From contig NZ_CALUWS010000017.1 of assembly GCF_944324525.1 (NCBI RefSeq), positions 1 through 52,867 of the forward strand: a DNA stretch of 52,867 bases, written 5' to 3'. Position 1 is the first letter of the stretch, and the number at the start of each line of letters is the position of its first letter. The notes beneath the pieces were generated by a model. That model made no database searches, was not told where the DNA came from, and saw only the letters and a list, made by a program, of their open reading frames with translations. This DNA is from an uncultured Desulfovibrio sp. Lineage in GTDB: Bacteria > Desulfobacterota > Desulfovibrionia > Desulfovibrionales > Desulfovibrionaceae. The position numbers and the translations under genes were made by a program. Shown here piece by piece: positions 25,223-41,089 of this stretch.

Positions 25223-25343
25223 ACGGCTGAAGCTCCCCCTGGGCGAAAACACGACGGTGCGCCGTGCCGCACCCGGTCTCAGTATGATAAGTCCGCCACC
25301 GGACTTGTTAAGGCTCCGGCGAAAAAATTTTTTTATCGCCGCG

Positions 25344-25517
25344 CCCGCCGCCGTTCTCGCCGTCCCACGGCGGATAGCCCGCCCGGCGGATGCGGTCGCG
25401 GCCGTCGGTTCGGGCAGTCAGTCCCGGAAGGCGCGGCTTTCCGCATCGAGCCGGCGGCAGGGGATCATGCAGAGGGCCGCACCGGACGTTCCCCTGCTTT
25501 GCGGCCTTCCCGACGGG
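25344..25517 (-). pseudogene. Remnant of a PstS-like domain C-terminus
   Basis: About 60 codons match the end of the array's binding domain: ALCMIPCRRLDAESRAFRD, then a TGA in place of the conserved Trp, a frameshift, and DGRDRIRRAGYPPWDGE. It directly follows the stop of the sixth array gene, whose own binding domain is missing. The two are best read as one gene that lost its middle by deletion. The rest of the space to dnaG holds no gene. Confidence 0.75.
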
Positions 25518-26359
25518 CTACCGTGTGCGTTTTGAGCAGCAGAAGGCCAGAATGAACAGACAGTAGACCAACAGAAAGCTCATTCCCGTCGCCTTGTACT
25601 GCAGAAACGGCTTGAAAAAATCCATGAAGAACAGGCCGTACAGGGCAAAGGCGGCATACAGCAGCGGCGGCAGCAGGAAGGGCAGATAGCGTGCGCTGAA
25701 GGTGGAGGGGAAAGGGGCTTCGGACGCCAGCCAGTGACCGCAAAGCAGCGGGATGGCGATGCCGGCCAGGGTGAACGGCGGCATGATTATCGAATGCCAC
25801 CAGGGGGAGCTGTTTTCCGAAGGGGCCACACCACAGACAAAAAACAGCGCCGGGAGCAGGAAGGCCAGACTCAGCAGCAGAAAGAAGGTCATCTTCACCG
25901 TCATGAGCGGATAGTGGGGATATGTCTGTTTTTCCTGTTCCGGGCTCGTGTCGCGGCAGGATGCGGCCTTCTCTTTGCGCTGTTCCCGCCGGTAACTGAG
26001 GCAAAAGGTAAAGAGGAGCAGAGCATACGGCGTCAGATAGACCAAAAGCAGCTTATCCGGCCGGCCGAACTCGATAACGACGTTGAAAAAAAGAGCAGGG
26101 GCAACAGCAGGGGAAAGAGCCTTGCCGTGCGCGAGCTGGGACGCGGAGCCCATGTGGCCAGCCGTTTGCCATAAAATATCGGCAGACCGAGGGAAACGGC
26201 AAAGATTGCCGCGGCGAGCAGGGCAAGTTGGGCGTCGGTAAAAAAAATATTCTTTCTGAAAAACCTCGTCATCAGCCATGCGGCTAGTGGCATGACTTGG
26301 GAAATGAAACCCAGCGCGGCGGCCATGAGCGCATAGCAAAGGTATTTGAGTGCCTGCAT
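25518..26359 (-). pseudogene. Array member 6: membrane module only, frameshifted
   Basis: The reading starts at 26359 (MQALKYLCYALMAAALGF) and breaks in the T7 tract (A7 on the plus strand, 26096-26102). Restoring one T continues into FNVVIEFGRPDKLLL and runs to 25518, giving about 280 residues. It contains two copies of the membrane unit, the second marked by STFSARYLPFLLPPLL. The PstS-like domain found in four sisters is absent, and a decayed fragment of it follows. It is the last gene of the array and 30 bases after member 5. Function is unknown. Confidence 0.7.
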
Positions 26360-26389
26360 AAAATTTTTCTCCTGGTTGCGAAGTATGGA

Positions 26390-28367
26390 TTACGGCTGCT
26401 GCGGACTTTCTCTGTCCCACGGCAGATAGCCCGCCCGGCGGATGAGGTCGCGGCCTTCGGGGCCGAGCAGCCAGTCCCGGAAAGCGCGGCTTTCGGCGTT
26501 GAGCGGGCGGCAGGAGATCATGCAGAGGGGGAGGCTGAGCGGATAGCTGCCGTCGCGTACGGTCGCGTCCGTGGGCGGTACGCCGTCCACGGCCAGCGGG
26601 CGGAAATCTCCGTCCGGGAACCACTTGTCCAGATACCAGCGCAGGCCGAAGCCCAGCGCCCCCGCCCGCTTGCGGTAGCGGGCCACGTCACGGGCCAGCC
26701 CCATCGAGGGTTGTTCCAGCAGGGGAGGGGCGGCCTCCTCGTCGCGCAGGACGAGCTCTTCCAGCGCGTGCTGGTTCTCGTCCCATCCTTCATGCTGGAA
26801 GGGGAGGATGCGCTCGTCCCGGCAGCCGACTTCCTTCCAGTTGGTGATCTCCCCGGTGTAGATGCGCCGGAGCTGTTCGCTGCTCAGGTTTCTTACGGGA
26901 TTGTCCTTGTGGACGAAAAAGACGAGGGCCTCGTGGGCCACGGGCCGCACATCGGGCGTCAGCCCCTGGGCGCGCAGCTCGTCAAGCTGATATTTTGACG
27001 GCGGCGGCCCGAAAAAAATGTCCACGGAGTCCGGCGTATCCATCCTGGATGAGAGACGGGCCTGCTTCACGCGCCGGGATCGGACCTCCTCGGAGAGGAG
27101 GCGTCCGTCCTCGTCAAGGCAGGCCACGGCCTGGAAGGCGGCGGCGTACAGGGGCCTGGAGGACTTCACGCCGCTCAGCGTGGGCAGGTTTTCGCCAAGG
27201 CGCAGCGAGGGCGGCGCGGCGGGCAGCTCCAGCGTGTTGCCCGCACGTTCGGGGGAAAATCTCTCCCAGAACTGCAACAACACCGTTTTGTCGAGGGCAT
27301 CGTCCTTGCCGCTGACGGTATCCCGCAACATGGTATGCAGATCGACGGCAACGGCCGCACAGCACAGGACGAAGACAAGCAACTGGCTGATCACCACCAC
27401 GCGGCGGCCTCGCACGGGGGGACAGGCGCGGATCCCGAGGCGGAAGGCAAGCAGGAACAGGCCGTAGGTCAGCAGAAAGGACGCCGTCAGCAGGCCGTAG
27501 AGGTGGGCGGGGCCGAAGTGGATGCGGGCGCATACGAACACGAAGACGAGAAACAGCGGCAACGGCAGCAGGAGCGGCAGATATCTGGCGTTGAACGTGG
27601 ATCTCGTCCGTGCGTGGCCCGCCAGCCATGCGCCGCAGGCCATCGGTACGGTGAGGCTGAAACAGACGACCGCCGCGAGGAGGGGATACTCACCGGGCGG
27701 GCAGCGAAGTTCAGACGCAAGCTCGAGGGGGATGCCGCTATTCTGGATGAGGAGAGAGCCGCCTTTCAGGACGAAAAACGCTTCGTCCAGGATGAACAGG
27801 TTCAGGAGGGTGCAGAGCGGCAGGATAAACACGCTCACGGTAACGGCCGCGATCTGATACCACACTGTCCTCGTCCCGTCGCCGGCGGGCCGCTCTTCTC
27901 CGTCGTGCCCTTCCGCCCTTTTCCGTGCGTGGCTGTGGAAGCAGAAGGCAAGCAGGAACCCCGCATACAGCAGGGCGATGGCAAGCAGCAGCAACAGATC
28001 GAAGGGTCTTGCCCACGGGGGTTGGAGCAGGGAGCGGAGCTTCTCCGTGGCCGGGGGGATGAAAGCAAGCATGAGGAGCGGCAACAGCGGGGGGGAGGAG
28101 CAAGGCGGATACGGAGCATCCCCGGGGCGCTTCGGCGGCCAGCCCGCGGCCCAGGGCCGCCACGAAGGAGATGCTGGTGTAGAGGATGAACAGGCCGAAC
28201 ACCTCCACGTACACCAGGGGAAACCAGATCGACACGCCGAAAAGATTGAAAAGGCAGTTCACCCCCACTTCCAGGCCGCCCCAGACGCCGCCTATGCTCA
28301 CGCAGAGGAGCCAGAAGCCCAGGGCCGTGGCCATGAGCGCATAGCGAAGATATCCCCGCGTCATCAT
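26390..28367 (-). pseudogene. Array member 5: double membrane module plus PstS-like domain, frameshifted
   Basis: Translation starts at 28367 or 28364 (MMTRGYLRYALMATALGF), overlapping the member 4 stop. It breaks in a C7 tract (G7 at 28089-28095). Removing one C joins SALLLPP to LLPLLMLAFIPP and gives about 658 residues ending at 26390. Two four-helix membrane units are followed by a PstS-like domain with IYTGEITNWKEVG, RAGALGFGLRWY and RRAGYLPWD. A tract of over 400 bp in this domain is nearly identical to member 3. A homopolymer on/off switch, a true mutation or a sequencing error are all possible. Confidence 0.8.
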
Positions 28368-30286
28368 TGGGCGTTCTCCTTCGTATCCTTGCGTTCCTTT
28401 GTGTCGTCGCTTCCGCTGTCGTTCCCGCCGTCCCAGGGCAGATAGCCCGCCCGACGGATGAGGTCGCGGCCTTCGGGGCCGAGCAGCCAGTCCCGGAAAG
28501 CGCGGCTGTCGTCGTCGAGCGGACGGCAGGCGATCAGGCAGAGCGGCACGATGAGCGGATAGCTGCCGTCGCGCAGTCTCGCGTCCGTGGGCGTCACGCC
28601 GTCCACGGCCAGCGGGCGAACGTCGCCGTCCGGGAACCACTGGCCCAGATACCAGCGCAGGCCGAAGCCCAGCGCCCCCGCCCGCTTGCGGTAGCGGGCC
28701 ACGCGAGCGGAAGGGAGATCGCTGGACGAAAACGGCAAATAGTCTTCCCGCAAGGGGGGAGCGGCGGCCTCGCCGCGCAGGACGAGCTCTTCCAGCAGGA
28801 GCTGGTTCTCGTCCTCCGCCTCATGCTGGAAGGGGAGGATACGTTCGTCCCGGCCGCCGACTTCCTTCCAGTTGGTGATCTCCCCGGTGTAGATGCGCCG
28901 GAGCTGTTCGCTGCTCAGGCTGCTGATTGGATTGTCCTTCTGGACGAAGAAGATGAGGGCCTCACGGGCCACAGGCCACATATCGGGCGTGATCCCCTGT
29001 GCGCGCAGCTCGTCAAGCTGCCGCCGTGAAGGCGGCGGGCCGAAAAAGATGTCGGTCGATACGGCGGCCAGCCGCTGCTGCTCATAGCGCTTGCTGTATT
29101 CCACACGTTCCCGCGTCAGCCGCTCGTTCCGTTCCCTCCAGGAGAGGAGGCGGCCGTCCTCGTCAAGGCAGGTCAGGGCCTGCAGGGCGGAAGCGTAGAG
29201 CGGCAGAGCGGCCAGCGTGCCGTCCAGACGGCTCGGACTTGCGCCGAGGCGCAGGGAGGGCGGCGCGGACGGCAGCGTGAGGGCGTTATCTTCCTCACGG
29301 GGGAAATACTTTTGGGCGAACTCCCAGTTCAGCGAGGGGATGACATCATGCACGCTGTTGTAGTTCCCCCGCGTCAGCGAGACCATGTTGACCGTATAGG
29401 CCGCACAAGGCGGGACGAGCACGAGCAGCAGGCAGGCCACGCCCACGCGGCGTCCCCGCGTCGGCTCCTGTCCCAAGGTGCGGGCCTCGCAGCCGAAGCC
29501 GAAAAGAAACAGGCTGTAGATCAGCAGGGAGGCTATCCCCGTGGACTGGTACAGGAGCAGGGGCACGGAGTGGTCCGTGCGCATGAAATAAAGACTGAGG
29601 GAAAGAAACAGCAGCGGCGGCAGCAGGTGGGGCAGATAGCGCGCGGCGAAGGTGGCGCGAAAAGGCGCCCCGGAAGCCAGCCAGCGACCGTAGTCCAGCG
29701 CGACGGCAAAGCCCAGGAGGGAGAGCGACGAGGAGGAGCGCAGCCATGACGTGCCGTCGGACAGGCCGTATACTTCCCGACCGAGGAAAAGGAGCAGCGG
29801 CGCGGTCATGCAGCCCAGACTCAGGGCCAGCGGGACGGTCGCGGCGACCGCCATGACCAGATAGCGGACGAGGTCCCTTCCCGCCTTTTCCGGTCGCCGC
29901 GGCGCGGGGCCGGTGAAAAGGCCAAGCAGGAACAGTCCGTACGGCAAAACGAACAGCAGCGTCTGCACGCCGATCACGTCCTCCCCCGCGAACAGGGAAG
30001 CCGTCAGGAAAGGAAGCGCCACCAGGAGATACAGCAGCGGCATCAGCAGCGGCGCCAGCGGAGGGAGCAGTCTTGCCGGGAGCGCGAGGGGGGCCTTGGC
30101 TCGGAGCAGGCGACCGGCATATATCGGCACGAAGAAGAAAGGACAGAAGGACGCCAGGACGTGCGGCGCGAACACGTCATAGCGCAGCAGGTCATGGGCG
30201 AAAGAGATGGCGAATCCCGCGAACAGTGCCAGAAGAGCACAGCCGATGCTCATGGGGATATAGGAAAAAGATCTCGTTTCCATCAT
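28364..30286 (-). CDS. Array member 4: double membrane module plus PstS-like binding domain
   Basis: This protein of about 640 residues starts at adjacent ATGs (30286 and 30283) after GGAGG, overlapping the stop of member 3. Two hydrophobic four-helix units (first marked LARLLPPLAPLLMPLLYLL, second FAARYLPHLLPPLLFL) lead to one more helix, then a soluble domain that begins with LDGTLAALPLYASALQAL. This resembles the first ligand loop of PstS-type proteins. It contains IYTGEITNWKEVGG and ends RRAGYLPWDG with a charged Asp/Lys/Glu tail. The domain should face the periplasm. No ABC transporter permease or ATPase genes accompany it. Transport, sensing or surface roles are all open. Confidence 0.82.
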   Translation of the reverse strand: MMETRSFSYIPMSIGCALLALFAGFAISFAHDLLRYDVFAPHVLASFCPFFFVPIYAGRLLRAKAPLALPARLLPPLAPLLMPLLYLLVALPFLTASLFAGEDVIGVQTLLFVLPYGLFLLGLFTGPAPRRPEKAGRDLVRYLVMAVAATVPLALSLGCMTAPLLLFLGREVYGLSDGTSWLRSSSSLSLLGFAVALDYGRWLASGAPFRATFAARYLPHLLPPLLFLSLSLYFMRTDHSVPLLLYQSTGIASLLIYSLFLFGFGCEARTLGQEPTRGRRVGVACLLLVLVPPCAAYTVNMVSLTRGNYNSVHDVIPSLNWEFAQKYFPREEDNALTLPSAPPSLRLGASPSRLDGTLAALPLYASALQALTCLDEDGRLLSWRERNERLTRERVEYSKRYEQQRLAAVSTDIFFGPPPSRRQLDELRAQGITPDMWPVAREALIFFVQKDNPISSLSSEQLRRIYTGEITNWKEVGGRDERILPFQHEAEDENQLLLEELVLRGEAAAPPLREDYLPFSSSDLPSARVARYRKRAGALGFGLRWYLGQWFPDGDVRPLAVDGVTPTDARLRDGSYPLIVPLCLIACRPLDDDSRAFRDWLLGPEGRDLIRRAGYLPWDGGNDSGSDDTKERKDTKENAQ

Positions 30287-32331
30287 CGTTCTTCCTCCGC
30301 GTCCTCGTTGTCCCCGCGGCTCCCGCGGCTCTCGTGGGCCGCCGTGTCGCCGCCGTTTTCGGCAGTCCCATCGTTTTCCTCGTCCCACGGCAGATAGCCC
30401 GCCCGGCGGATGAGGTCGCGGCCTTCGGGGCCGAGCAGCCAGTCCCGGAAAGCGCGGCTGTCGTCGTCGAGCGGACGGCAGGCGATCAGGCAGAGCGGCA
30501 CGATGAGCGGATAGCTGCCGTCGCGCAGGCTCGCGTCCGTGGGCGTCACGCCGTCCACGGCCAGCGGGCGGACGTCGCCGTCCGGGAACCACTGGCCCAG
30601 ATACCAGCGCAGGCCGAAGCCCAGCGCGCCGCTCCGCTTGCGGTAGCGGGCCACATCACGGGATGGCCCCATTGAGCCTCGTTCGCGCAGGGGCGGTGCG
30701 GCCTCCTCGCCGCGCAGGACGAGCCGTTTCAGCAGACGCTGGTTTTCCCCCCATTTTTCATGCTGGAAGGGGAGGATGCGCTCGTCCCGGCCGCCGACTT
30801 CCTTCCAGTTGGTGATCTCCCCGGTGTAGATGCGCCGGAGCTGTTCGCTGCTCAGGTTTCTTACGGGATTGTCCTTGTGGACGAAAAAGACGAGGGCCTC
30901 GTGGGCCACGGGCCGCACATCGGGCGTCAGCCCCTGGGCGCGCAGCTCGTCAAGCTGATATTTTGACGGCGGCGGCCCGAAAAAAATGTCTACGGAGTCC
31001 GGCGTATCCATCCTGGATGAGAGACGGGCCTGCTTCACGCGCCGGGACAGGATCTCCTCGGAGAGGAGGCGACCGTCCTCGCCAAGGCAGGCCACGGCCT
31101 GGAAGGCGGCGGCGTACAGGGGCCTGGAGGACTTCACGCCACTCAGCGTGGGCAGGTTTTCGCCAAGGCGCAGCGAGGGCGGCGCGGCGGGCAGCGCCAG
31201 AGCATTGCCCGGCGTGTCAGGGGAAAATCTCTTCCGGAAGTCCCAGTTGTCCCCTGTGCCGACGGCATCGTGATCTCCCGTGATCAGGGTGTCGTGCGCG
31301 GCGGACAGACTGACGGCAAGACCCGCGCAGAACGGGACAAGCGCAAGCAGCAGACAGACCACGCCCACGCGGCGGCCCCGCGTAGGCGCACAGGAACGGC
31401 TCCACAGGCGGAAGGCGCACAGAAACAGTCCGTAGGTCAGCAGAAAGGCCAGCATTGCCAGCAGGTAGACGGAGACAGAGCCGAAGGACGCACGAACGTG
31501 CAGGAGCAGGATGGAAAGAAAGATCAGCGGCGGCAGGAGAAGCGGCAGATATCTGGCGCTGAAGGTGGATGCCGCCTGCGCGCGGGACGCCAGCCAGCCG
31601 CCGCAGGCCGCCGGTACGGTGAGGCTGCAGCAGGCGATGGCCGCGTTGCAGAGATACGGAGCGACGATAAGCCCACTTCCCAACCTCGAAACAAGAGCGC
31701 GGTTCAGGTGGAACGGCGCACCGTTATTGAAGAAGAACAGATAGCTGTCGGTGAGGGTGAAAAGAACGCCGTTCACAACGAACATGTTCAGCAGCGTGCA
31801 AAGCGGCAGAAAGAAAACGCTTGCGGCAACGACCGTGCCCAGATAGCGCGGATAGCCCTGTGCCGCCGTGCTCTTGCCGTTCGTGGAAGTGGGCGGCTGC
31901 TCCCCGTGCTTCGCCGCCGTTTTCCGTGCACGACTATGGCGGTGGAAGGCAAGCAGGAACAGCACATACAGCAGGCCGGCGGCAAGCAGCGGCAGCAGCT
32001 CTTCCAGGAATACAAGATAATCCCGGTTGGAAAGTATGACGGCAAGGACGGGGAGCGGCGACAGCAAGGGGAAAAGTCCGGCGAATGCGGAGCACGACAG
32101 GGGCGCCTCGGCGGCCATGCGGCGAGTCAGGGCCGTCACGGCGATCAGGGGAATGCAGGCGCCGCCCACGAGGATGCCCAGCAGGCAAGGGAGGATCGCC
32201 CACGTGGGGACAAGCCGCAGAAAGTAAAAGATGCCCAGCATGCCGCCCCAGCCGAGGCCGATGCTCGCGAACAGGAGCCAGAAGCCCAGAGGCGCGGCCA
32301 TGAGCGCATAGCGCAGATATGCCCGCGTCAT
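30283..32331 (-). CDS. Array member 3: double membrane module plus PstS-like binding domain
   Basis: This is the longest intact member at 682 residues. Residues 1-330 hold two copies of a four-helix unit, each with a loop of the type A-x(2-3)-F-x-A-R-x-L-P-L-L-L-P and each ending LLxYxLFLxAF; a further helix lies near 322-345. Residues 388-650 form the PstS-like domain: SGVKSSRPLYAAAFQAV, IYTGEITNWKEVGG (501-514), RSGALGFGLRWYL, and RRAGYLPWD. A Glu/Asp-rich tail follows. The start overlaps the member 2 stop by four bases. The binding domain is close to that of member 5, and its last third is close to member 4. Confidence 0.85.
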   Translation of the reverse strand: MTRAYLRYALMAAPLGFWLLFASIGLGWGGMLGIFYFLRLVPTWAILPCLLGILVGGACIPLIAVTALTRRMAAEAPLSCSAFAGLFPLLSPLPVLAVILSNRDYLVFLEELLPLLAAGLLYVLFLLAFHRHSRARKTAAKHGEQPPTSTNGKSTAAQGYPRYLGTVVAASVFFLPLCTLLNMFVVNGVLFTLTDSYLFFFNNGAPFHLNRALVSRLGSGLIVAPYLCNAAIACCSLTVPAACGGWLASRAQAASTFSARYLPLLLPPLIFLSILLLHVRASFGSVSVYLLAMLAFLLTYGLFLCAFRLWSRSCAPTRGRRVGVVCLLLALVPFCAGLAVSLSAAHDTLITGDHDAVGTGDNWDFRKRFSPDTPGNALALPAAPPSLRLGENLPTLSGVKSSRPLYAAAFQAVACLGEDGRLLSEEILSRRVKQARLSSRMDTPDSVDIFFGPPPSKYQLDELRAQGLTPDVRPVAHEALVFFVHKDNPVRNLSSEQLRRIYTGEITNWKEVGGRDERILPFQHEKWGENQRLLKRLVLRGEEAAPPLRERGSMGPSRDVARYRKRSGALGFGLRWYLGQWFPDGDVRPLAVDGVTPTDASLRDGSYPLIVPLCLIACRPLDDDSRAFRDWLLGPEGRDLIRRAGYLPWDEENDGTAENGGDTAAHESRGSRGDNEDAEEER

Positions 32332-33233
32332 CGGATGTTCTCCTTTCTTCGTTTGTACGCTATTCGTTTATCCGCAAAAAACGACAGGAACAGGACGTAG
32401 GTCAGCAGGAAAACCAGCATCCACTGAGCGGCATCGCGCACGAGGAGGCTGGAGAAGAAAAAACCGCTCGGTAGCGAGAGGAAAAGGAAGAGCAGCGACG
32501 GCAGCAGGAGCGGCTTGAAGCCGGGAAAGAAGGCGGCTACGGGCTGTGCGCGGGCTGCCAGCCAGTAGCCGCACGCCGCCGGGGTGCAGGACCAGAAAAC
32601 GATGCTCAGCATGGAGAAGCTATCCCACAAGCCTATGCCCAGCAACGTGGAGAGCGGCAGGAAGAGGATGCTCACGACAACGGCTGCGACCAGATAGCGG
32701 CGATAGGCCCGCGCCATCGTACCTGTGTCGCTCGCGGCGGCGGACCGCTCTCCCTCTCCGTGCATTTCCGTCCATTTCCGTGCGCGGTGGCAGAGACAGA
32801 AGGCAAGCAGGAACAGCGCGTACAGCAGGCAGGCCAGCAGGCAGGCTGATAACAGCAGGAAACCCAGCATGTCCAGATCCTTAAACGTGAAGGGCAAACG
32901 GCTCGGCAGCACGCCCAGCCCGGCAGGCAGGAAGGCAAGGGCGGGGGTCGCGATCAGCAGGGGGAGCAGTCCGGCGGATACGGAGTACGACAGGGGCGTT
33001 TTGGCGGCCAGCCAGGAGCCCAGCTTCGTAACGGCGAGGAGGAGACAGTAGGGGCCGCCTATGAAGCCGCAGCAGATCGCCAGCAAGGTGATGAAAAAGT
33101 TGTCGGGAAGAAAGCGGAAAGGGGAGATAAAAAGGTAGGGGAGGATCAACAGGCCGCCCACGATCATGATGAGGACCCCGAAGCCCAGGGCCGTGGCCAT
33201 GAGCGCATAGCGAAGATATCCCCGCGTCATCAT
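32328..33233 (-). CDS. Array member 2: double membrane module without binding domain
   Basis: This 301-residue, almost wholly hydrophobic protein starts MMTRGYLRYALMATALGFG, the same N-terminus as member 5. It has two membrane units (YSVSAGLLPLLIATPALAF and AAFFPGFKPLLLPSLLFLFL) and stops after LLTYVLFLSFF with a basic tail, exactly where its sisters continue into the PstS-like domain. Its ATGATGA start overlaps the member 1 stop and its own stop overlaps the member 3 start. A natural domain-free version, or a truncated one, are both possible. The lack of decay favours a functional protein. Confidence 0.75.
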   Translation of the reverse strand: MMTRGYLRYALMATALGFGVLIMIVGGLLILPYLFISPFRFLPDNFFITLLAICCGFIGGPYCLLLAVTKLGSWLAAKTPLSYSVSAGLLPLLIATPALAFLPAGLGVLPSRLPFTFKDLDMLGFLLLSACLLACLLYALFLLAFCLCHRARKWTEMHGEGERSAAASDTGTMARAYRRYLVAAVVVSILFLPLSTLLGIGLWDSFSMLSIVFWSCTPAACGYWLAARAQPVAAFFPGFKPLLLPSLLFLFLSLPSGFFFSSLLVRDAAQWMLVFLLTYVLFLSFFADKRIAYKRRKENIR

Positions 33234-34693
33234 TGGGCGTTCTCCTTCGTATCCTTGCGTTCCTTTGTGTCGTCGCTTCCGCTGTCGTTCCCGCCGTCCC
33301 ACGGCAGATAGCCCGCCCGGCGGATGAGGTCGCGGCCTTCGGGGCCGAGCAGCCAGTCCCGGAAGGCGCGGCTTTCGGCGCTGAGCGGGCGGCAGCTCGC
33401 CATGCAGAGGGGGAGGCTGAGCGGATAGCTGCCGTCGCGCAGGGTCTCGTCCGTGGGCGGCACGCCGTCCACGGCCAGCGGGCGGACATCCCCGTTCGGG
33501 AACCACTTGTCCAGGTAGCTCCGCAGGCCGAAGCCCAGCGCGCCCGGCCTGTTGCGGTAGGCGGCCACGCGGCGGACGGGGCCGCTGTCACAGGGATCGA
33601 GCCGGCTTTCCTCCTGCAACGGGGTGGTGGGAGCCTCCCCGCGCAGGACGAGCTGTTCCAGCAGGAACTGGTTCTCGTCCCCTTCTTCATACTGGAAGGG
33701 GAAAATACGTTCGTCCCGACCGCCCACGTCCTGCCAGTTGGTGATCTCCCCGGTGTAGATGCGCCGGAGCTGTTCGCTGGTCAGACCGGTAACGGGATCG
33801 TCCTTGCGGACGAAAAAGACGAGGGCCTCGCGGGCCAGCGGCCGCACGTCGGGCGTCAGTCCCCGGGCGCGCAGCTCGTCAAGCTGCCGCATTGACGGCG
33901 GCGGCCCGAAAAAGAAGGTTATCTCCCCGGCGGTCAGCCGTTCCCAGCCGTGCAGGCCGTTGCACTCCACCAGGGGCGGCATACGGCGTTCCCGCCGTTC
34001 GGCGGCGGTGAGACGTTCGCCGTCCACGGCCCAGGATGCGGCGGCGTAGAGCGGCAGGGCGGCCAGCGTGCCGTCCAGAAGGGGCTGGTTTTGCGCAAGG
34101 CACAGCGAGGGCGGCCCGGCCGGGAGAACGATGCCCGTGAAATCGTCGAGACTGTACGGCCGCATGCGTTGCGCATCGTCAAAGAAGGTGACGCGCCGCA
34201 CGGCATACAGATCGACGCCCACGGCGGCGCAGCAGGCGGCCGCCGTCAGCAGCAGGCAGGCAAGACCCCTGCGGCGCTCCCGCGTCGATTCCCGCTTGCG
34301 GTTCCTGACAAGGAAGGCAAGAAAAAAAAGACCGTACTGGGGCAGCAGCAGAAAACGCACGCCGTCCGCAAGATCCGCAAAGGTGGTGGGGAGGACGCGC
34401 AGATGGCGGCCCAGCAAAAAAAGGTAGATGCAGGGCGGCAGCAGCAGGGGCAGGAACTTGGCGGCGAAGGTGGGCGGGAAATGCGCCCGTGCCGCCAGCA
34501 GCCAGCCGCAGACAAGGGGCAGGATGACGCACAACGCCAGCACGCCCGGCACCGTGAGGAGCGAGCAGGCCAGACGAGCAAGGCCGATCATCAGACCGTT
34601 GTCCATGAGGAGATACGGCAACAGCGGCAGCGGAAACAGAAAGCTCACGGCAAAGGCCGTGACCATGTAACGCAGCTTTTCCCCCGTCCTCAT
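33230..34693 (-). CDS. Array member 1: single membrane module plus PstS-like binding domain
   Basis: This 487-residue protein is the first gene of the array. It has only one four-helix unit (FAAKFLPLLLPPCIYLFLL), a further helix (GLACLLLTAAACCAAVGV), then a PstS-like domain from LDGTLAALPLYAAASWAV, with IYTGEITNWQDVGG, RPGALGFGLRSYL and RRAGYLPWDG. The start at 34693 is the first ATG in a protein-like context and has AAGGGG upstream; earlier in-frame ATGs at 34777 and 34729 read into sequence without membrane character. Its 3' end and the following junction are identical to the member 4/member 5 junction. Confidence 0.8.
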   Translation of the reverse strand: MRTGEKLRYMVTAFAVSFLFPLPLLPYLLMDNGLMIGLARLACSLLTVPGVLALCVILPLVCGWLLAARAHFPPTFAAKFLPLLLPPCIYLFLLGRHLRVLPTTFADLADGVRFLLLPQYGLFFLAFLVRNRKRESTRERRRGLACLLLTAAACCAAVGVDLYAVRRVTFFDDAQRMRPYSLDDFTGIVLPAGPPSLCLAQNQPLLDGTLAALPLYAAASWAVDGERLTAAERRERRMPPLVECNGLHGWERLTAGEITFFFGPPPSMRQLDELRARGLTPDVRPLAREALVFFVRKDDPVTGLTSEQLRRIYTGEITNWQDVGGRDERIFPFQYEEGDENQFLLEQLVLRGEAPTTPLQEESRLDPCDSGPVRRVAAYRNRPGALGFGLRSYLDKWFPNGDVRPLAVDGVPPTDETLRDGSYPLSLPLCMASCRPLSAESRAFRDWLLGPEGRDLIRRAGYLPWDGGNDSGSDDTKERKDTKENAQ

Positions 34694-35400: not shown

Positions 35401-35634
35401 CTAGTCCTCGCCTTCGGCGTGGGACTGCTTGCCCGCGCCCTTGAGGCCGTACATGGTGGTGGAGCCGGAGGACCAGAATTCCAGCACTTCTTCATTGACC
35501 AGCTGGGTGAGCAGCTTTTTCACTTCGCGGGGGCCTTTGTCGGGGAAAAGATCGGTGAAGTCCTTGAAATAGAATTTGGACTTGGCGGCGGATTTGCCCT
35601 TGAGGAAGTCGATGATCACATCTTTGTCGGCCAT
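35401..35634 (-). CDS. dsrD: Dissimilatory sulfite reductase-associated protein DsrD
   Basis: DsrD is a 77-residue winged-helix-like protein that is found with dsrAB in sulfate reducers and is known to stimulate DsrAB activity. The sequence (FYFKDFTDLFPDKGPREVKK to VLEFWSSGSTTMYGL) matches the family throughout and its length is normal. It follows dsrB by 56 bases and is the last gene before the operon terminator. Its presence points to reductive rather than oxidative sulfur metabolism. Confidence 0.96.
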   Translation of the reverse strand: MADKDVIIDFLKGKSAAKSKFYFKDFTDLFPDKGPREVKKLLTQLVNEEVLEFWSSGSTTMYGLKGAGKQSHAEGED

Positions 35635-35690
35635 TTTCGTCTCCTGTCCCGGCGGCGCGTATGCGCCGCCGGGGTCGCGTCGAACCGGGG

Positions 35691-36836
35691 TTAGAACTTG
35701 AACTGGGTGCTCTGCCGCCAGGTGTAGTAGGCGGGATCGCGGAAATCGTCGATGAGGTGGTGGGTGAACTTCAGGCCGGTGAGCTTGAAGAAGGATTCCC
35801 AGCCGATGCGGTTGGCCCAGTCGCCGAGCCGCTCGTACTTGTTGGCATGAGCGGCGTAGACGTCAAGGATGTGCTTGACGGTCTTGGTGAGGGTGGGCCA
35901 GCGCGGCGGTTCGTTGGGGATGTAGCCCACGACCACCTTGGAGAACTTGGGCATGGTGATGCGGTTGGACACCTTGCCGCCGACCATGATGGCGATGCCG
36001 TCGCCTTCGCTGTCGGCAATGGGCAGGGCGGGGCACATGGTGTAGCAGTTGCCGCAGTACATGCAACGATCCTGCTTGATGGCCACGGAATTCACCTTCT
36101 GGCCGTTCCATTCCGCCTTGGTGGGACGCACGGCGGCGGTGGGGCAGGCGGCCACGGCCAGCGGGATCTCGCACAGCTTGTCGGCCCACTGATGGTCGAT
36201 CATGGGCGGCTTGCGGTGGATGCCCACGAGGCCGATGTCGGAACAGTGCACCGCGCCGCACATGTTGATGCAGCAAGCCAGGGAGATGCGCACCGGGGCG
36301 GGCAGGCGCATGTTCTTGAATTCCTCGAACACGGTGTCCATCACGCATTTCACCGGGCCGGAGGCGTCGGTGGCCGGGGTGTGACAATGGACCCAGCCCT
36401 GGGTGTGGATCATGTTGCTCACGCCCGCGCCGGTGCCGCCCACGGGGAACTTGTGGGAGCCGCCGGCAAAGGTGCGGGAGTTCAGGTCGTCGCGCAGGGC
36501 CTTCATGGTGGCTTCGTCCTCCACCATGAACTCGATGTTGCTGCGGGTGGTCCAGCGCACATAGCCGCCGCAGTATTTGTCCGCGATGTCGCAGATCTCG
36601 CGGATATGGGTGATGGACATGGTGCGGGTGCCGCCCACGCGGACGGTGTACACCTTGTCGCCGCTCTCGGCCACATGCATCAGCACGCCGGGCTCAAGGA
36701 TCTCGTGATAGAGCCACTTGCCGAAGTTCTTCTTGATGACCGGCGGAAAGAATTCGTCATACTTGCGGGGGCCGATGTCGGTGATGCGGCCTTCCATCGG
36801 TTTGTCGGGATTGTATCCGGAAGAAATAAAAGCCAT
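35691..36836 (-). CDS. dsrB: Dissimilatory sulfite reductase beta subunit DsrB
   Basis: DsrB carries the catalytic siroheme of the alpha2beta2 enzyme that reduces sulfite in sulfate respiration. This 381-residue protein shows the siroheme-[4Fe-4S] ligand region [11 protein letters not shown] and a second ferredoxin domain with ACPTAAVRP and [12 protein letters not shown]. The substrate-side segment [14 protein letters not shown] is also present. It starts 18 bases after dsrA. No frameshift or missing ligand is seen. Confidence 0.98.
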
Positions 36837-36854
36837 GATCGTCTCTCCCTTGAA

Positions 36855-38165
36855 CTAGCGTTGATGACGGCTGCGGTAGGCGGCGAGATCGCGGTCCCAG
36901 CCGCCGGGCACTTCTTCCTTGAAGAAGATGTAGGGGTTGGAGCGGGGTTCCTTGACGTGGCAGGCGGCGGCCTCGATGTCGGTGACTTCCAGCAGCTTCT
37001 GGAAGGACAGGCGCTTCATGGTCTCGCCCACGCGCTCGCGGTTCTTGCCTTCCTCCATCCACCAGTCCCAGATCTTTTCGATGACTTCCTTGACTTCGGT
37101 GTAGGGCGCTTCACAGGAGATGAAGGGCACGAGCAGGGAACCCATCTGCGCGCCGTCCACCACCGGGGCCTTGGCGCCCACAAGGATGCTGGCGCCGCGC
37201 TCGTCGCCGATATGCAGGGCGCGGGGCATGGTGTTGATGCAGTGCATGCAGCGCACGCAGTCGGCGGTCTTGATGGAGATCTTGTTGCCGTCCCAGCTCA
37301 TGCACTTGGAGGGGCAGAGGTCGATGACTTCCTTCTGGATGTCGAACTTGCCCCAGTCGCGGCCGGAATGCGCGCCGGCGTTGGGGGCGAATTCGCCGCC
37401 CACATAGGCTTTCACGGCGTCCTGATCGATCTTGATGTCGTCCTTCCAGGTGCCGACGACGGCAAAGTCGGAGCGGGCCATGGCGCAGACGCAGCCGTTG
37501 GGACAGCCGTCGAACTTGAATTTGAACTTGTAAGGGAAGGCCGGGCGGTGCAGCTCGTCCTGATAGTCCATGGTAAGCTGATAGCACATGTCCTGCGTGT
37601 TGTAGCAGGCATATTCACAGCGGGACTGACCGAGACAGGCGGCCGGGGTGCGCAGGTTGGAGCCGGAGCCGCCGAGGTCGTTACGCAGGTTGTGGGTCAG
37701 CTCGTGGAAGATCTCTTCCAGCTGCGGGGTCTGGGTGCCGAGCAGCACGATGTCGCCGGTGGAGCCGTGCATGTTGGTCAGGCCGGAACCGCGCAGATCC
37801 CAGATGTTGCACAGGCCGCGCAGGAATTCCGTATTGTAGTATTTGCCGGAAGGCTGGGCCACACGGATGGTGTGGAAATGCGCCACGCCGGGAAATTTTT
37901 CGGGCTGATCGCAGTAGCGGCCGATGACGCCGCCGCCGTAGCCGAACACGCCCACGATGCCGCCGTGCTTCCAGTGGGTCTCCTTTTCCTCGTAGGAGAG
38001 CTCAAGGACGCCGAGCAGATCTTCCGGGGCGTCCACCGGGATCTGGTAGTCCAGATTATCGGGATTGGCCGCACGGTGCGCCGCTTCCTGCTTGATGTCG
38101 GACACGAAGCTCGGCCAGGGGCCGCTTTCCAGCTGGTCCAGAAGGGGAGTTGCGTGTTTTGCCAT
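36855..38165 (-). CDS. dsrA: Dissimilatory sulfite reductase alpha subunit DsrA
   Basis: DsrA is a 436-residue cytoplasmic subunit that pairs with DsrB. Visible ligands are CLGQSRCEYACYNTQDMC in the siroheme/cluster region, CPSKC, and the inserted ferredoxin motif CVRCMHCINTMP. The N-terminal LDQLESGPWPSFVSDIK is typical of sulfate-reducer DsrA. It is the first gene of dsrA-dsrB-dsrD, with a good Shine-Dalgarno (GGAGG) and a candidate promoter about 90-115 bases upstream. Confidence 0.98.
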   Translation of the reverse strand: MAKHATPLLDQLESGPWPSFVSDIKQEAAHRAANPDNLDYQIPVDAPEDLLGVLELSYEEKETHWKHGGIVGVFGYGGGVIGRYCDQPEKFPGVAHFHTIRVAQPSGKYYNTEFLRGLCNIWDLRGSGLTNMHGSTGDIVLLGTQTPQLEEIFHELTHNLRNDLGGSGSNLRTPAACLGQSRCEYACYNTQDMCYQLTMDYQDELHRPAFPYKFKFKFDGCPNGCVCAMARSDFAVVGTWKDDIKIDQDAVKAYVGGEFAPNAGAHSGRDWGKFDIQKEVIDLCPSKCMSWDGNKISIKTADCVRCMHCINTMPRALHIGDERGASILVGAKAPVVDGAQMGSLLVPFISCEAPYTEVKEVIEKIWDWWMEEGKNRERVGETMKRLSFQKLLEVTDIEAAACHVKEPRSNPYIFFKEEVPGGWDRDLAAYRSRHQR

Positions 38166-38410: not shown

Positions 38411-39331
38411 TCAAAAAGTGCAGAAAAAAGAATAAATAGGGTTTATACAACTTTTTTTCGTTTTTTTGGGAGGAGAGTAGAGGAAGGGGGCGGGTGAAAA
38501 GACGTTAATTTGGTGCAATAAATACACGACATCCTGCTCCGCCTGCAGCAAGGGCAGGCAGCGGCAGTGCCGCCGCAGCCACGTCAGCATGACGCGCCGG
38601 AACGCGCTGTCCGCCTCCGGCAGCAGCAGGAGCGGCCCCGGCCCGCCGTGCCGGGCAAGACGATCCAGAAAGGCCGGGATGGCCTCACCGGCGGACCGGC
38701 CGTCCGGCAGTCCGCAAAAAAGTGCCGTACCGCGCGGAGCAAGGGCCGCCAGCCAGTGGCCGCCAAGCGGGGGACGGCCCGACGCGGCCCGGACAGGATG
38801 CGGCAGACAGCGCAGGAGGAAGAACGGCGGCGCGGGCAGGCCATGCCGCGTACCGGGAGTTGCGGCGGACAGGAGGCGGGTGCATTCCTGCCGGAGACGG
38901 GCAAGCGCCTCGCGCCTTTCCGGCGGCAGCGTCAGTCCCCATTGCTGGAGAAGCCGTTGCACCGTCCAGCGGGAAGGGCAGATGCCGCACTGGGCCTGCA
39001 CGGCGGCGGTCAGGCGGTCCCGCGTCCACAGAAGCGGTCCGCCGGTGTCTGGGTCGGACGGCAGGTTCTCCATGACGAAACGGGCCAGATCGCCGTCCAT
39101 GCCCCGCTCGATGGTCCGGCCTGTGGGCCGTCCTTTCCGACCGCCGCGCAGGGCCGCCGCGCCGCCGCCCCGAAAGGCCTTCATCCAGGCCGCCACCGTG
39201 GAGCGGCTGACGCCGAACACCGCCGCGGCTTCGGTCTGGTTCAGCTCTCCGGCCTGGATGGCTTCCACCGCCTTGCGGCGCATGATGTGCAGGGTCTCCG
39301 GCGAAAGGCGGCGTCCGTCACGTCCGGGCAT
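38411..39331 (-). CDS. IS630-like helix-turn-helix protein with degenerate catalytic half
   Basis: The N-terminal half of this 306-residue protein is an IS630/Tc1-type helix-turn-helix (LNQTEAAAVFGVSRSTVAAW) with a second winged helix (WTVQRLLQQWGLTLPPERR). The C-terminal half resembles the transposase core in layout (IPAFLDRLARHGGPGPLLLL, then VMLTWLRRHCRCLP), but the Asp and Glu catalytic residues and the LPPYSPELNP-type end are missing. No terminal inverted repeats were found. It may be a domesticated DNA-binding protein or a dying transposase. It overlaps the preceding regulator gene by 14 bases and sits directly upstream of dsrA. The last 30 or so residues are low-complexity and may not be conserved. 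Confidence 0.55.
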   Translation of the reverse strand: MPGRDGRRLSPETLHIMRRKAVEAIQAGELNQTEAAAVFGVSRSTVAAWMKAFRGGGAAALRGGRKGRPTGRTIERGMDGDLARFVMENLPSDPDTGGPLLWTRDRLTAAVQAQCGICPSRWTVQRLLQQWGLTLPPERREALARLRQECTRLLSAATPGTRHGLPAPPFFLLRCLPHPVRAASGRPPLGGHWLAALAPRGTALFCGLPDGRSAGEAIPAFLDRLARHGGPGPLLLLPEADSAFRRVMLTWLRRHCRCLPLLQAEQDVVYLLHQINVFSPAPFLYSPPKKTKKSCINPIYSFFCTF

Positions 39332-40958
39332 GGCGGCCGTTCTCCGGGCGTCCGTCACGGCGGGATATGCCGTATTTCTTCAGGCGAGAGCAGAGCGTGG
39401 TGGGACTGATGCCCAGCAGGGCCGCCGCGCCGTCAGGGCCGTAGATCTTGCGGCCGCACTGGTCCAGCGCGCGGACCAGATTGTCACGGAACAGGCTGTC
39501 CATCTCCGTCTCCGTATAGACACGCTCCGCCCTGTCCGGCGGCGGGGCGCAGGCGCGCAGGCTCGCGGCAAGCTGCCCGGCGTCGAGTCGGCCGTCCGGC
39601 GCGGTGATGACGGCCCGCAGCAGGATATTGCGCAGCTCCCGGACATTGCCGGGCCAGTCGTATGCCGTAAGCACGGGCAGGACATCCGTGGGCAGCGCCG
39701 AAGCGGGGCGGTGCAGCTGCGCGGCAAAGGCGGACAGGAAGTGCCCGGCCAGCAGGGGGATGTCCTCCTTGCGCTCCCGCAGGGGAGGCACGTCCAGCGC
39801 AAGGACATTGAGCTGGTAATAGAGGTCCTCCCGAAACTTCCCCTGCCGCACCTGCTGGAAAAGATCCGCGTGCGTGGCGGCAAGAATGCGGATCCGCACC
39901 GGGCGGCGCGCTTTGTCGCCGGGACGCAGGAACGATCCCGAATGGATGATGCCCAGCAGCTTGCCCTGCACATCCAGCGGGATGTCATCGACATTTTCAA
40001 GAAAGAGCGTTCCGTGAGCGGCGGCCTCAAGAAAGCCCACATGCACCGCGTCGTCCTGTCGCTCTCCGAGGAATTCCCGCTCGAACTGCCCCGGTGAGAT
40101 GGCCGCGCAGTCCACCTTGACCAGCGGCCCGGCGGCGACGGCGCTCTGCCGGTGCAGCTCGGCGGCCACCGCGCCCTTGCCCGTGCCCACCTCGCCGGTT
40201 ATCAGCACGGGCGCGGCCGAAAAGGCCACGCGGCGGATGTTCTCCTTCAGGCCACGGATGGCCTGACTGTCGCCTACCAAGAAAGGGCCGGGATCGGCGC
40301 TGTCCCGCTGCAGATAGGAATTCTCGATCTCCAGACGCCGCTTGAGGCGCGTCAGCTCCTCAAACTGCTGGGCATTGGCCAGCGAGACGGCAAGATAATC
40401 GGCGATGAGCCGCAGCCTGTCCAGCGCCAGACCGTCATGACGGCTGCGGCTGAACAAGGCCAGCACGCCGAGCACCTCCCCCTTGTGGGTCAGCGGCTGG
40501 CCGAGGAAGGTGCTGATGCCTTCACGGGCGATCCAGTCCGGGTCGCTCACCCACGGCATGTCTGGGGAGACGGCATCCACATGGAACGCCTCGCCGGAAG
40601 CCGCGATGAGGCCCACCTTGCCGCGCCCCAGCGGGAAGCGCTGATGCCTGCCGTCCAGCGCCGTCCAGGTCTCGCCGCTGACGCGGGACTGCCCGTACCC
40701 GGCCGCAAGGCGCAGGCAGCGGCGATGCTCCGGGCAGTCGTAGAAGTGACGACAGGCGGCGCAGCGTTGGGGATCCGCCTGCTCCATGAGCCAGATGCGG
40801 CAGAGCGCCGTATCGTGCAGGCGGCCGAGATGATCCGTGACCAGCGCAAAAAGCTGATCAAGGTCGTGGCACTGGGCCATCCGCAAAAGGAGCCCGTGGA
40901 CGGCGGCCATATCCCGGAGACTGGTCTCCTCCGACAGGTGAGCGTTGGTTTCCTGCAT
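39318..40958 (-). CDS. NtrC-family regulator lacking the GAFTGA loop (GAF-AAA-Fis)
   Basis: This 546-residue protein has the layout of a sigma54 activator: a GAF domain (20-200) with a cysteine group (C53, C66, C69, C75, C81), an AAA+ domain with Walker A GEVGTGKG (255-262), and a C-terminal Fis-type helix-turn-helix. The GAFTGA loop that contacts sigma54 is replaced by DDAVHV near 302-307. Walker B reads LFLENV instead of LFLDEI, and YYRLN is YYQLN. It may therefore bind DNA without activating sigma54, perhaps as a repressor. The cysteines could hold a cluster or metal. It lies upstream of dsrAB in the same direction. The start at 40958 avoids reading through repeat C. Confidence 0.82.
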
Positions 40959-40964
40959 AGGCTG

Positions 40965-41089
40965 TCCGGGGACCGGGGCCACGGCGGGGGACTGCGGCGT
41001 CACCCGCACGGTGAGGGACCCCGGCAAGAGTTTCGAGGGGAGGGAGCGCGGGGGGGACCTTTGCAAAGGTCCCTCTCCCCCGCATCATC
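40965..41089 (+). repeat. Interspersed repeat family C, copy 2
   Basis: It shares GGCGTCACCCGCACGGTG, GACCCCGGCAAGAGTTTCGA and the hairpin GGGACCTTTGCAAAGGTCCC with copy 1 at 35149. It fills the whole space between the mutS2 stop (41090) and the regulator start (40958). The hairpin could terminate or attenuate mutS2 transcription. Confidence 0.75.

Follow-up and report, generated by a model that had tools for sequence, protein, structure and literature searches.

This work concerns a tandem array of genes for membrane proteins, several of them fused to a domain resembling the phosphate-binding protein PstS, in an uncultured Desulfovibrio sp. The stretch of DNA analysed, called the window below, is the whole 52,867-nucleotide contig NZ_CALUWS010000017.1 (contig C17 of genome G000), on which dsrA, dsrB, dnaG and rpoD genes are also present. 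The array is a same-strand run of homologous genes on the minus strand (34693 to 25329), flanked by a dsrABD copy and dnaG. It comprises six genes, here named A to F, and only A, C, D and E encode the PstS-like domain; A has one membrane unit, and B, C, D and E have two each. A first-pass annotation of this DNA had described six genes and a fragment sharing one architecture. The tandem run of homologues stands; the common architecture holds for A, C, D and E only. The features are as follows.

33230..34693, minus strand: gene A, 487 amino acids (aa), one membrane unit and a PstS-fold domain
33287..34120, minus strand: PstS-fold domain of A, residues 192-469, from structure prediction and comparison
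32328..33233, minus strand: gene B, two membrane units without a PstS domain, from its open reading frame (ORF) and an intact orthologue, G063_4
30283..32331, minus strand: gene C, 682 aa, two membrane units and a PstS-fold domain
31297..32331, minus strand: the two homologous membrane units of C (31882-32331 and 31297-31866), from hhalign of unit profiles
30370..31170, minus strand: PstS-fold domain of C, residues 388-654, with fast-evolving segments at residues 420-447 and 532-559
28364..30286, minus strand: gene D, 640 aa, two membrane units and a PstS-fold domain; orthologue G075_4, 94% identical
28089..28367, minus strand: first part of gene E, to the frame break; the open frame continues out of register to 27738
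28095-28089, minus strand: C7 tract at the frame break of E (C6 in G063 and G075)
26390..28081, minus strand: second part of gene E, in another frame, with the remaining membrane units and the PstS-fold domain
25518..26359, minus strand: gene F, membrane units only, frame broken at a T7 tract (26092-26086)
25329..25474, minus strand: decayed C-terminal tail of a PstS-like domain after F, from tblastn pieces and repeats D4 and D5
28364-28367, 30283-30286, 33230-33233 and 32328-32331, minus strand: ATGA stop/start overlaps D/E, C/D, A/B and B/C, respectively

Successive genes from A to E thus overlap by four nucleotides, ATGA, at each of their four junctions. The longer ATGATGA, previously reported for the junctions in general, is found at three of them (33233, 30286 and 28367), and the B/C overlap reads CGATGACG. 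Two 300-nucleotide blocks each occur four times in the array, with 84-89% identity to the reference copy. As these blocks recur and related arrays exist in five other genomes, the array is not due to chance. A promoter scan found two candidates against a mean of 1.2 in shuffled sequence, and 18 terminator-like sites against a shuffle mean of 9.2 are left uninterpreted.

The PF12849 (PBP_like_2) model matches four of the six ORFs, namely A, C, D and the second part of E, with E-values of 2.5e-15 to 1.9e-14 and scores of 54.5-57.4 bits (cut-off 27). It does not match B or F, and B has no Pfam or NCBIfam match at all. The fusion of a PstS-like domain to membrane segments, as first proposed, is borne out: the fold search suggested at the time, carried out by structure prediction and structure comparison, confirms a periplasmic binding protein (PBP) fold. 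The match spans the domain, and the fold is nearest to phosphate-binding proteins. The VIA-align rows span the PstS domain alone, and the membrane units were barely tested by fold comparison. The TIGR02136 (PstS) model gives 71.5-86.2 bits with all four window proteins, far under its cut-off of 206.6, and a search of BFVD was uninformative, with three matches at E 0.001 or better, to giant-virus kinases and a LysR-type protein.

For comparison, we used 79 wide relatives (loci L106-L184), which are the best 80 of 530 minus L105, located on the same contig as the G001 C42 gene. The patterns used to draw them came from conserved stretches outside the SGSQ loop; 52 (for A) and 40 (for C) of the relatives entered the structure alignments, together with four and five window proteins. 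In PstS, a loop of the REDGSGT type grips phosphate. When C is aligned in sequence with 4q8r and 4gd5, the latter a phosphate-bound structure according to its title, the REDGSGT loop of 4gd5 falls on HEKWGEN. The corresponding R...SGSQ motif is present in 79 of the 79 wide relatives, with a following T or S in 77, A in one and V in one. It is found in none of the 20 array domains from six genomes (the partial row G043_b0 included), which all have ENQ instead. The segment IYTGEITNW, cited initially as typical of phosphate-binding proteins, was misleading in this respect, being a conserved segment of the PBP fold distinct from the anion loop. Ligand loop 2 was matched in just 27 of the 79 wide relatives by the pattern used; since even the wide family has no well-defined form of this loop, the motif argument concerns the R...SGSQ loop only. 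Judged by their sequences, the array domains have probably lost phosphate recognition.

No Pst partner was found near the array, as the first-pass annotation had stated. The PstB model has 50 matches in the own genome, none of them on C17, and neither a Pst permease nor PhoU was found among 36 window ORFs scanned with Pfam, which are part of the 224 listed and include several chance frames. With no Pst partner found and the anion motif lost, an ordinary Pst operon is ruled out. Contig C85 of the same genome encodes PstB and a PBP_like_2 protein, both scoring over the cut-offs.

As for the membrane part, profiles of the first and second units (12 and 16 rows) align by hhalign with a probability of 98.5% and an E-value of 3e-15 over 138 columns, which indicates that this part grew by internal duplication. 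Gene 6 of G063 has reached 14 predicted helices in 850 residues. The topology check suggested earlier gave a divided answer. Hydropathy parity places the domain outside in three of six domain-bearing proteins, A, C and D, and the lysine plus arginine counts of the same three agree (12 in and 7 out for A, 18 and 6 for C, 13 and 8 for D). Charge and hydropathy give no decision for the domain-less B and G063_4. The array domain would lie on the periplasmic side.

The claim that no described system has this layout was partly right. Relatives with the layout exist in E. coli and Bacillota, mostly as single genes; no functional description of the multi-transmembrane (multi-TM) PstS-domain family appeared in the portions of the literature retrieved. 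In 66 of the 79 best-scoring wide relatives, three or more TM helices are predicted ahead of the domain, and three of the 79 loci carry a PstB-type signature. These proteins of Bacillota and other bacteria resemble the array products in their multi-TM N-terminus, their PBP_like_2 domain and the rarity of a PstB-type signature, but they keep R...SGSQ throughout, and their TM count ranges from 0 to 6 by hydropathy. PstS proteins are partners of the PstCAB transporter. Those compared here (4gd5, 4q8r, 1twy, 2abh) differ from the array domains, which lack the SGT loop present in 4q8r and 4gd5 and sit on multi-TM proteins.

The E. coli relative has 501 residues, with five predicted TM helices and then a domain with RPEDSGSQT. 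Its full-length form is annotated as a PstS family phosphate ATP-binding cassette (ABC) transporter substrate-binding protein. It shares the multi-TM plus PstS-like layout with the array proteins and is 24-27% identical to the four window proteins aligned. Unlike them, it is as a rule encoded by a single copy, has an intact anion loop and contains one membrane unit. Some match is present in 4602 of 5426 complete E. coli genomes, and in 3316 of the 5426 at least 80% of the DNA is present, a count by length and not by intactness. All matches lie on chromosomes, at a median of one place per genome and at most two. In three listed genomes with a 253-base match, this match is annotated as yzgL, a stub; we take yzgL to be the K-12 stub of the full-length gene. 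The gene upstream is presumably glgP-like, and no Pst gene was recognised in the flanking frames read by eye. In NZ_CP044443.1 (hit H37), the E. coli relative is interrupted by IS1. A multi-TM N-terminus with a PBP_like_2 domain is likewise found in A, C, D and, over two frames, E, while B and F lack the domain. On the tree, we treat the array, whose domains lack the anion loop, as a derived side branch of this yzgL-type family, not as a typical member. In the literature, yzgL is listed as an uncharacterised protein in a CpxR-regulon table, with a value of -2.0 (PMC2731931), and is mentioned in passing (PMC8406316, PMC6127932); about 10% of the proteins retrieved by binding-protein profiles had a transmembrane region (PMC9602780). 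As far as we found, the wide family is known to databases and apparently unstudied, and the array form is its derived, recombining variant.

Among 79 genomes of the genus, ten match gene D at E 1e-22 and six harbour the array (G000, G043, G063, G072, G073 and G075). At the family level, 18 of 288 genomes match at E 1e-30. The survey of related genomes proposed at the outset thus revealed the array in five genomes besides our own, with variable copy number and a variable mix of domain-bearing and domain-less genes. The array has a single origin, as its 19 domains in the tree form one clade (100/100). This clade is nested in a 26-row clade (95/89) that contains the array and exactly seven motif-less non-array relatives, all from Desulfovibrionaceae (G043 C8, G025, two of G048, G020, G075 C49 and G073 C138). 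The latter also combine a multi-TM part with a PstS-like domain and are sister groups of the array. Unlike the array, they occur in one copy, or as a tandem pair in G048; those of G025, G048 and G043 are not beside dnaG, and no membrane-unit repeat was seen in this set. Seven other Desulfovibrionaceae relatives (two of G001, two of G255, L185, L187 and L188) keep R...SGSQ. Because the array is nested with motif-less relatives, loss of the motif most likely preceded the expansion. The tree took in 11 of the 79 wide relatives and left out the partial row G043_b0. Of its two L185 rows, one is plainly read in the wrong frame and has a very long branch; from this tree we use no more than the array clade with its sister groups. 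Three array-bearing genomes, G043 (C8), G073 (C138) and G075 (C49), carry their diverged motif-less relative elsewhere (L040, L085 and L086); a search of the own genome found none of this kind. G048 and G255 contain pairs of related genes that are not part of such an array.

In four of the six genomes (G000, G043, G063 and G072), dnaG is on the array-bearing contig, and the contigs of G073 and G075 end before dnaG. In all 11 array-less loci examined upstream of dnaG, which represent 11 of the 73 array-less genus genomes, no more than about 350 bases separate MutS2 from dnaG, measured between match ends. In the window, mutS2 and dnaG are 15.8 kb apart, separated by a sigma-54 activator gene, an IS630-like transposase fragment, the dsrABD copy and the array. 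As MutS2 is not reached on the contigs of L082, L084 and L098, mutS2 is established as the other border in the window only. A tRNA-linked insertion is rejected, with 0 tRNAs in the window.

The array genes are mosaics. Read in steps of 30 codons, each window domain has as its nearest relative at some places a paralogue from its own genome and at others a gene from elsewhere; the table excludes G043_b0. Thus, the C domain is 94-100% like that of E over codons 0-150 and 98-100% like that of D over codons 210-270. The breakpoints were assessed by four maximum chi-square tests, in each of which none of 3000 permutations was as extreme. A variable system had been among the options raised by the first-pass annotation, and a recombining, variable array is indeed supported. 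Paralogues diverge more in their membrane parts than in their domains, as for C and E with a synonymous divergence (pS) of 0.359 versus 0.125. Between orthologues, omega (dN/dS) is 0.15-1.40 depending on the gene and part, versus 0.04-0.05 for dnaG. Substitution is also uneven within the domain. The six windows covering residues 420-447 and 532-559 of C have a nonsynonymous divergence (pN) of 0.24-0.57 and a pN/pS of 0.70-1.15. In the 19 other domain windows, pN is 0.00-0.19 throughout, and pN/pS is 0.00-0.76 in 16 of them. To the extent that the alignment resolves it, the first fast segment covers the position of ligand loop 2; the second comes after the lost SGSQ loop.

Two genes of the window are broken, E at the C7 tract and F at a T7 tract. 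At the place of the C7 tract, G063 and G075 have C6, and no F orthologue was found for comparison of the T7 tract. The coding strand of the array contains one C7 and four T7 tracts, and since three of the T7 tracts lie in unbroken parts, the coincidence of breaks with homopolymers is weaker than it looks. Phase variation at these homopolymers is possible, on an equal footing with recent loss or sequencing error.

Altogether, we favour the view, to which we give about an even chance, that the array encodes binding domains tethered to the membrane and not involved in transport, which ceased to recognise phosphate before the expansion and diversify by gene conversion on a membrane scaffold. In the wider family, as represented by the E. 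coli yzgL locus and Bacillota, the oxyanion loop is kept, and these proteins would probably bind phosphate or a similar anion without handing it over to an ABC transporter. The anion loop might then have been lost in the ancestor of the Desulfovibrio clade, after which the gene would have been duplicated at the site beside dnaG, the membrane unit repeated within genes and the domain shed by some copies. Gene conversion would shuffle domain segments among the copies and homogenise much of the domain, while rapid change continues in the two segments located at or beside the former ligand loops. The resulting proteins may serve the diversified binding of a non-phosphate target, be it a changing ligand or a protein partner, with the membrane units as an anchor. 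Transport and phosphate binding by the array proteins both appear unlikely. It is tempting to speculate further that recombination turns the array into a repertoire of periplasmic recognition modules, in which a substrate-binding fold released from transport and phosphate is exposed on a modular membrane scaffold, gene conversion re-assorts the two variable segments at the old ligand loops, and homopolymer breaks switch copies off and on; we consider this extended version rather unlikely.

Several observations weigh against the view of diversifying tethered domains. Frame breaks affect two of the six window genes, one domain has decayed, and in G073 a domain-tail fragment follows the domain-less gene 3. 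The very existence of domain-less genes implies that the PstS domain is dispensable. Three of the 19 other domain windows reach a pN/pS of 1.02-1.61 (pS 0.06-0.18), and as pN/pS is not clearly above 1 in the fast segments, diversifying selection is not separable there from relaxed constraint. Hydropathy parity puts the domain inside in G063_5, G063_6 and G075_2; the count is crude, and in G075_2 one counted helix falls within the domain. Finally, other residues could hold an anion in the array domains.

The main rival is a relaxed, mostly neutral expansion, in which a redundant tandem family with little or no selected role decays by frameshift, domain loss and concerted evolution. The two broken genes and the decayed tail of the window and the tail fragment of G073 are in line with it, as are the differences in copy number and composition between genomes and the omega values of up to 1.40 in some orthologue comparisons. 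Nevertheless, we regard it as a possibility on the doubtful side. All 17 fully read genes of G063, G072, G073 and G075 have every matched piece in a single frame, over pS values of up to about 0.25, and ENQ is kept in each of the 20 domains. The domain-less genes remain open too, the B type in the window and G063 and another type in G063, G072 and G073. The membrane part of gene A has an omega of 0.15-0.36 in three comparisons with the window, with a value of 0.67 between G075 and G073. An assembly or sequencing artefact, with collapsed or chimeric repeats and false frame breaks, would account for the location of both breaks in 7-base homopolymers and for the related assemblies that break within the array (G043, G073 and G075). 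It is very improbable given the similar arrays in five other genomes and the 94% identity of gene D to its G075 orthologue: the array as such is real, and the two frame breaks alone may be errors.

Two further alternatives assign the proteins a different role. They could be membrane-anchored sensors or capture proteins for phosphate or another oxyanion that feed or regulate a Pst system elsewhere in the genome, such as that suggested by the PstB and PBP_like_2 genes of C85, and both the nearness of the fold to phosphate-binding proteins and the retention of the anion loop in the wide family fit this idea. The disappearance of that loop from every array domain makes it improbable, however, as do the TIGR02136 scores and the failure to find a Pst gene close to the array. 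Alternatively, the proteins might confer immunity or act as decoys against membrane-acting toxins or phages, as a polymorphic set maintained in an array because the attacker changes; this would explain the tandem organisation, variable copy number, mosaic exchange and fast segments. Yet none of five proteins matched a PADLOC profile of known anti-phage defence proteins at E 0.01, no toxin gene was recognised among the 36 scanned window ORFs, and only two of 121 patterned stretches of viral contigs encode a relative, distant at 27%, which leaves this role still less probable.

The combination of a multi-TM part with a PstS domain is not new, and it is the expansion into an array that is unusual. 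For the array domains, which lost the phosphate-gripping residues, a new and uncharacterised binding role is suggested. More broadly, a widespread, uncharacterised and probably mislabelled kind of protein emerges: multi-TM proteins that most E. coli genomes and many Bacillota encode and that are annotated as PstS partners of a transporter; a transporter is usually not recognised next to their genes. Strains of E. coli with only the yzgL stub, K-12 presumably among them, may explain why the family was overlooked. As single-gene and array forms can be compared, a change of ligand in a substrate-binding fold becomes testable.

The surroundings of the genes were also inspected. Clustering of 799 neighbour ORFs from the 79 wide-family loci yielded no cluster judged to be tied to the gene; the largest, from 29 loci, is an ABC-ATPase by sequence reading, and the others come mostly from related taxa, by eye. 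Carriage as phage cargo was considered and set aside: beside the two distant relatives from viral contigs, matches in plasmid and phage records numbered 24 and 16, all below 60% identity and none over more than 80% of the query. Dpp-like permeases, named by eye only, lie near the G025 and G001 genes. On the Treponema saccharophilum plasmid pTS1 (L048), a gene for a related substrate-binding protein is near RelE/ParE-type, Imm1-family and leucine-rich-repeat genes.

As for the other content of the mutS2-dnaG insertion in the window, a GAF plus sigma-54 activator gene occupies 39318-41066. The ORF at 38411-39358, which adjoins the dsrABD copy, resembles the N-terminal part of IS630-family transposases (58.3 bits, cut-off 100). 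The genome has two dsrABD copies, at 35401-38165 inside the insertion and on G000:C7 (L099, 5875-8660), 91.9% identical over 2788 bases; their DsrD proteins are identical, and DsrA and DsrB are 93.8% and 95.8% identical. In G063 (C21:1-11900; L098, L084), the contig end bears a dsrD fragment, and about 11.8 kb of other genes separate this fragment from the array, which indicates that the content of the insertion varies. Four other members of the genus, G006, G057, G050 and G071, have two dsrD copies about 5-6 kb apart.

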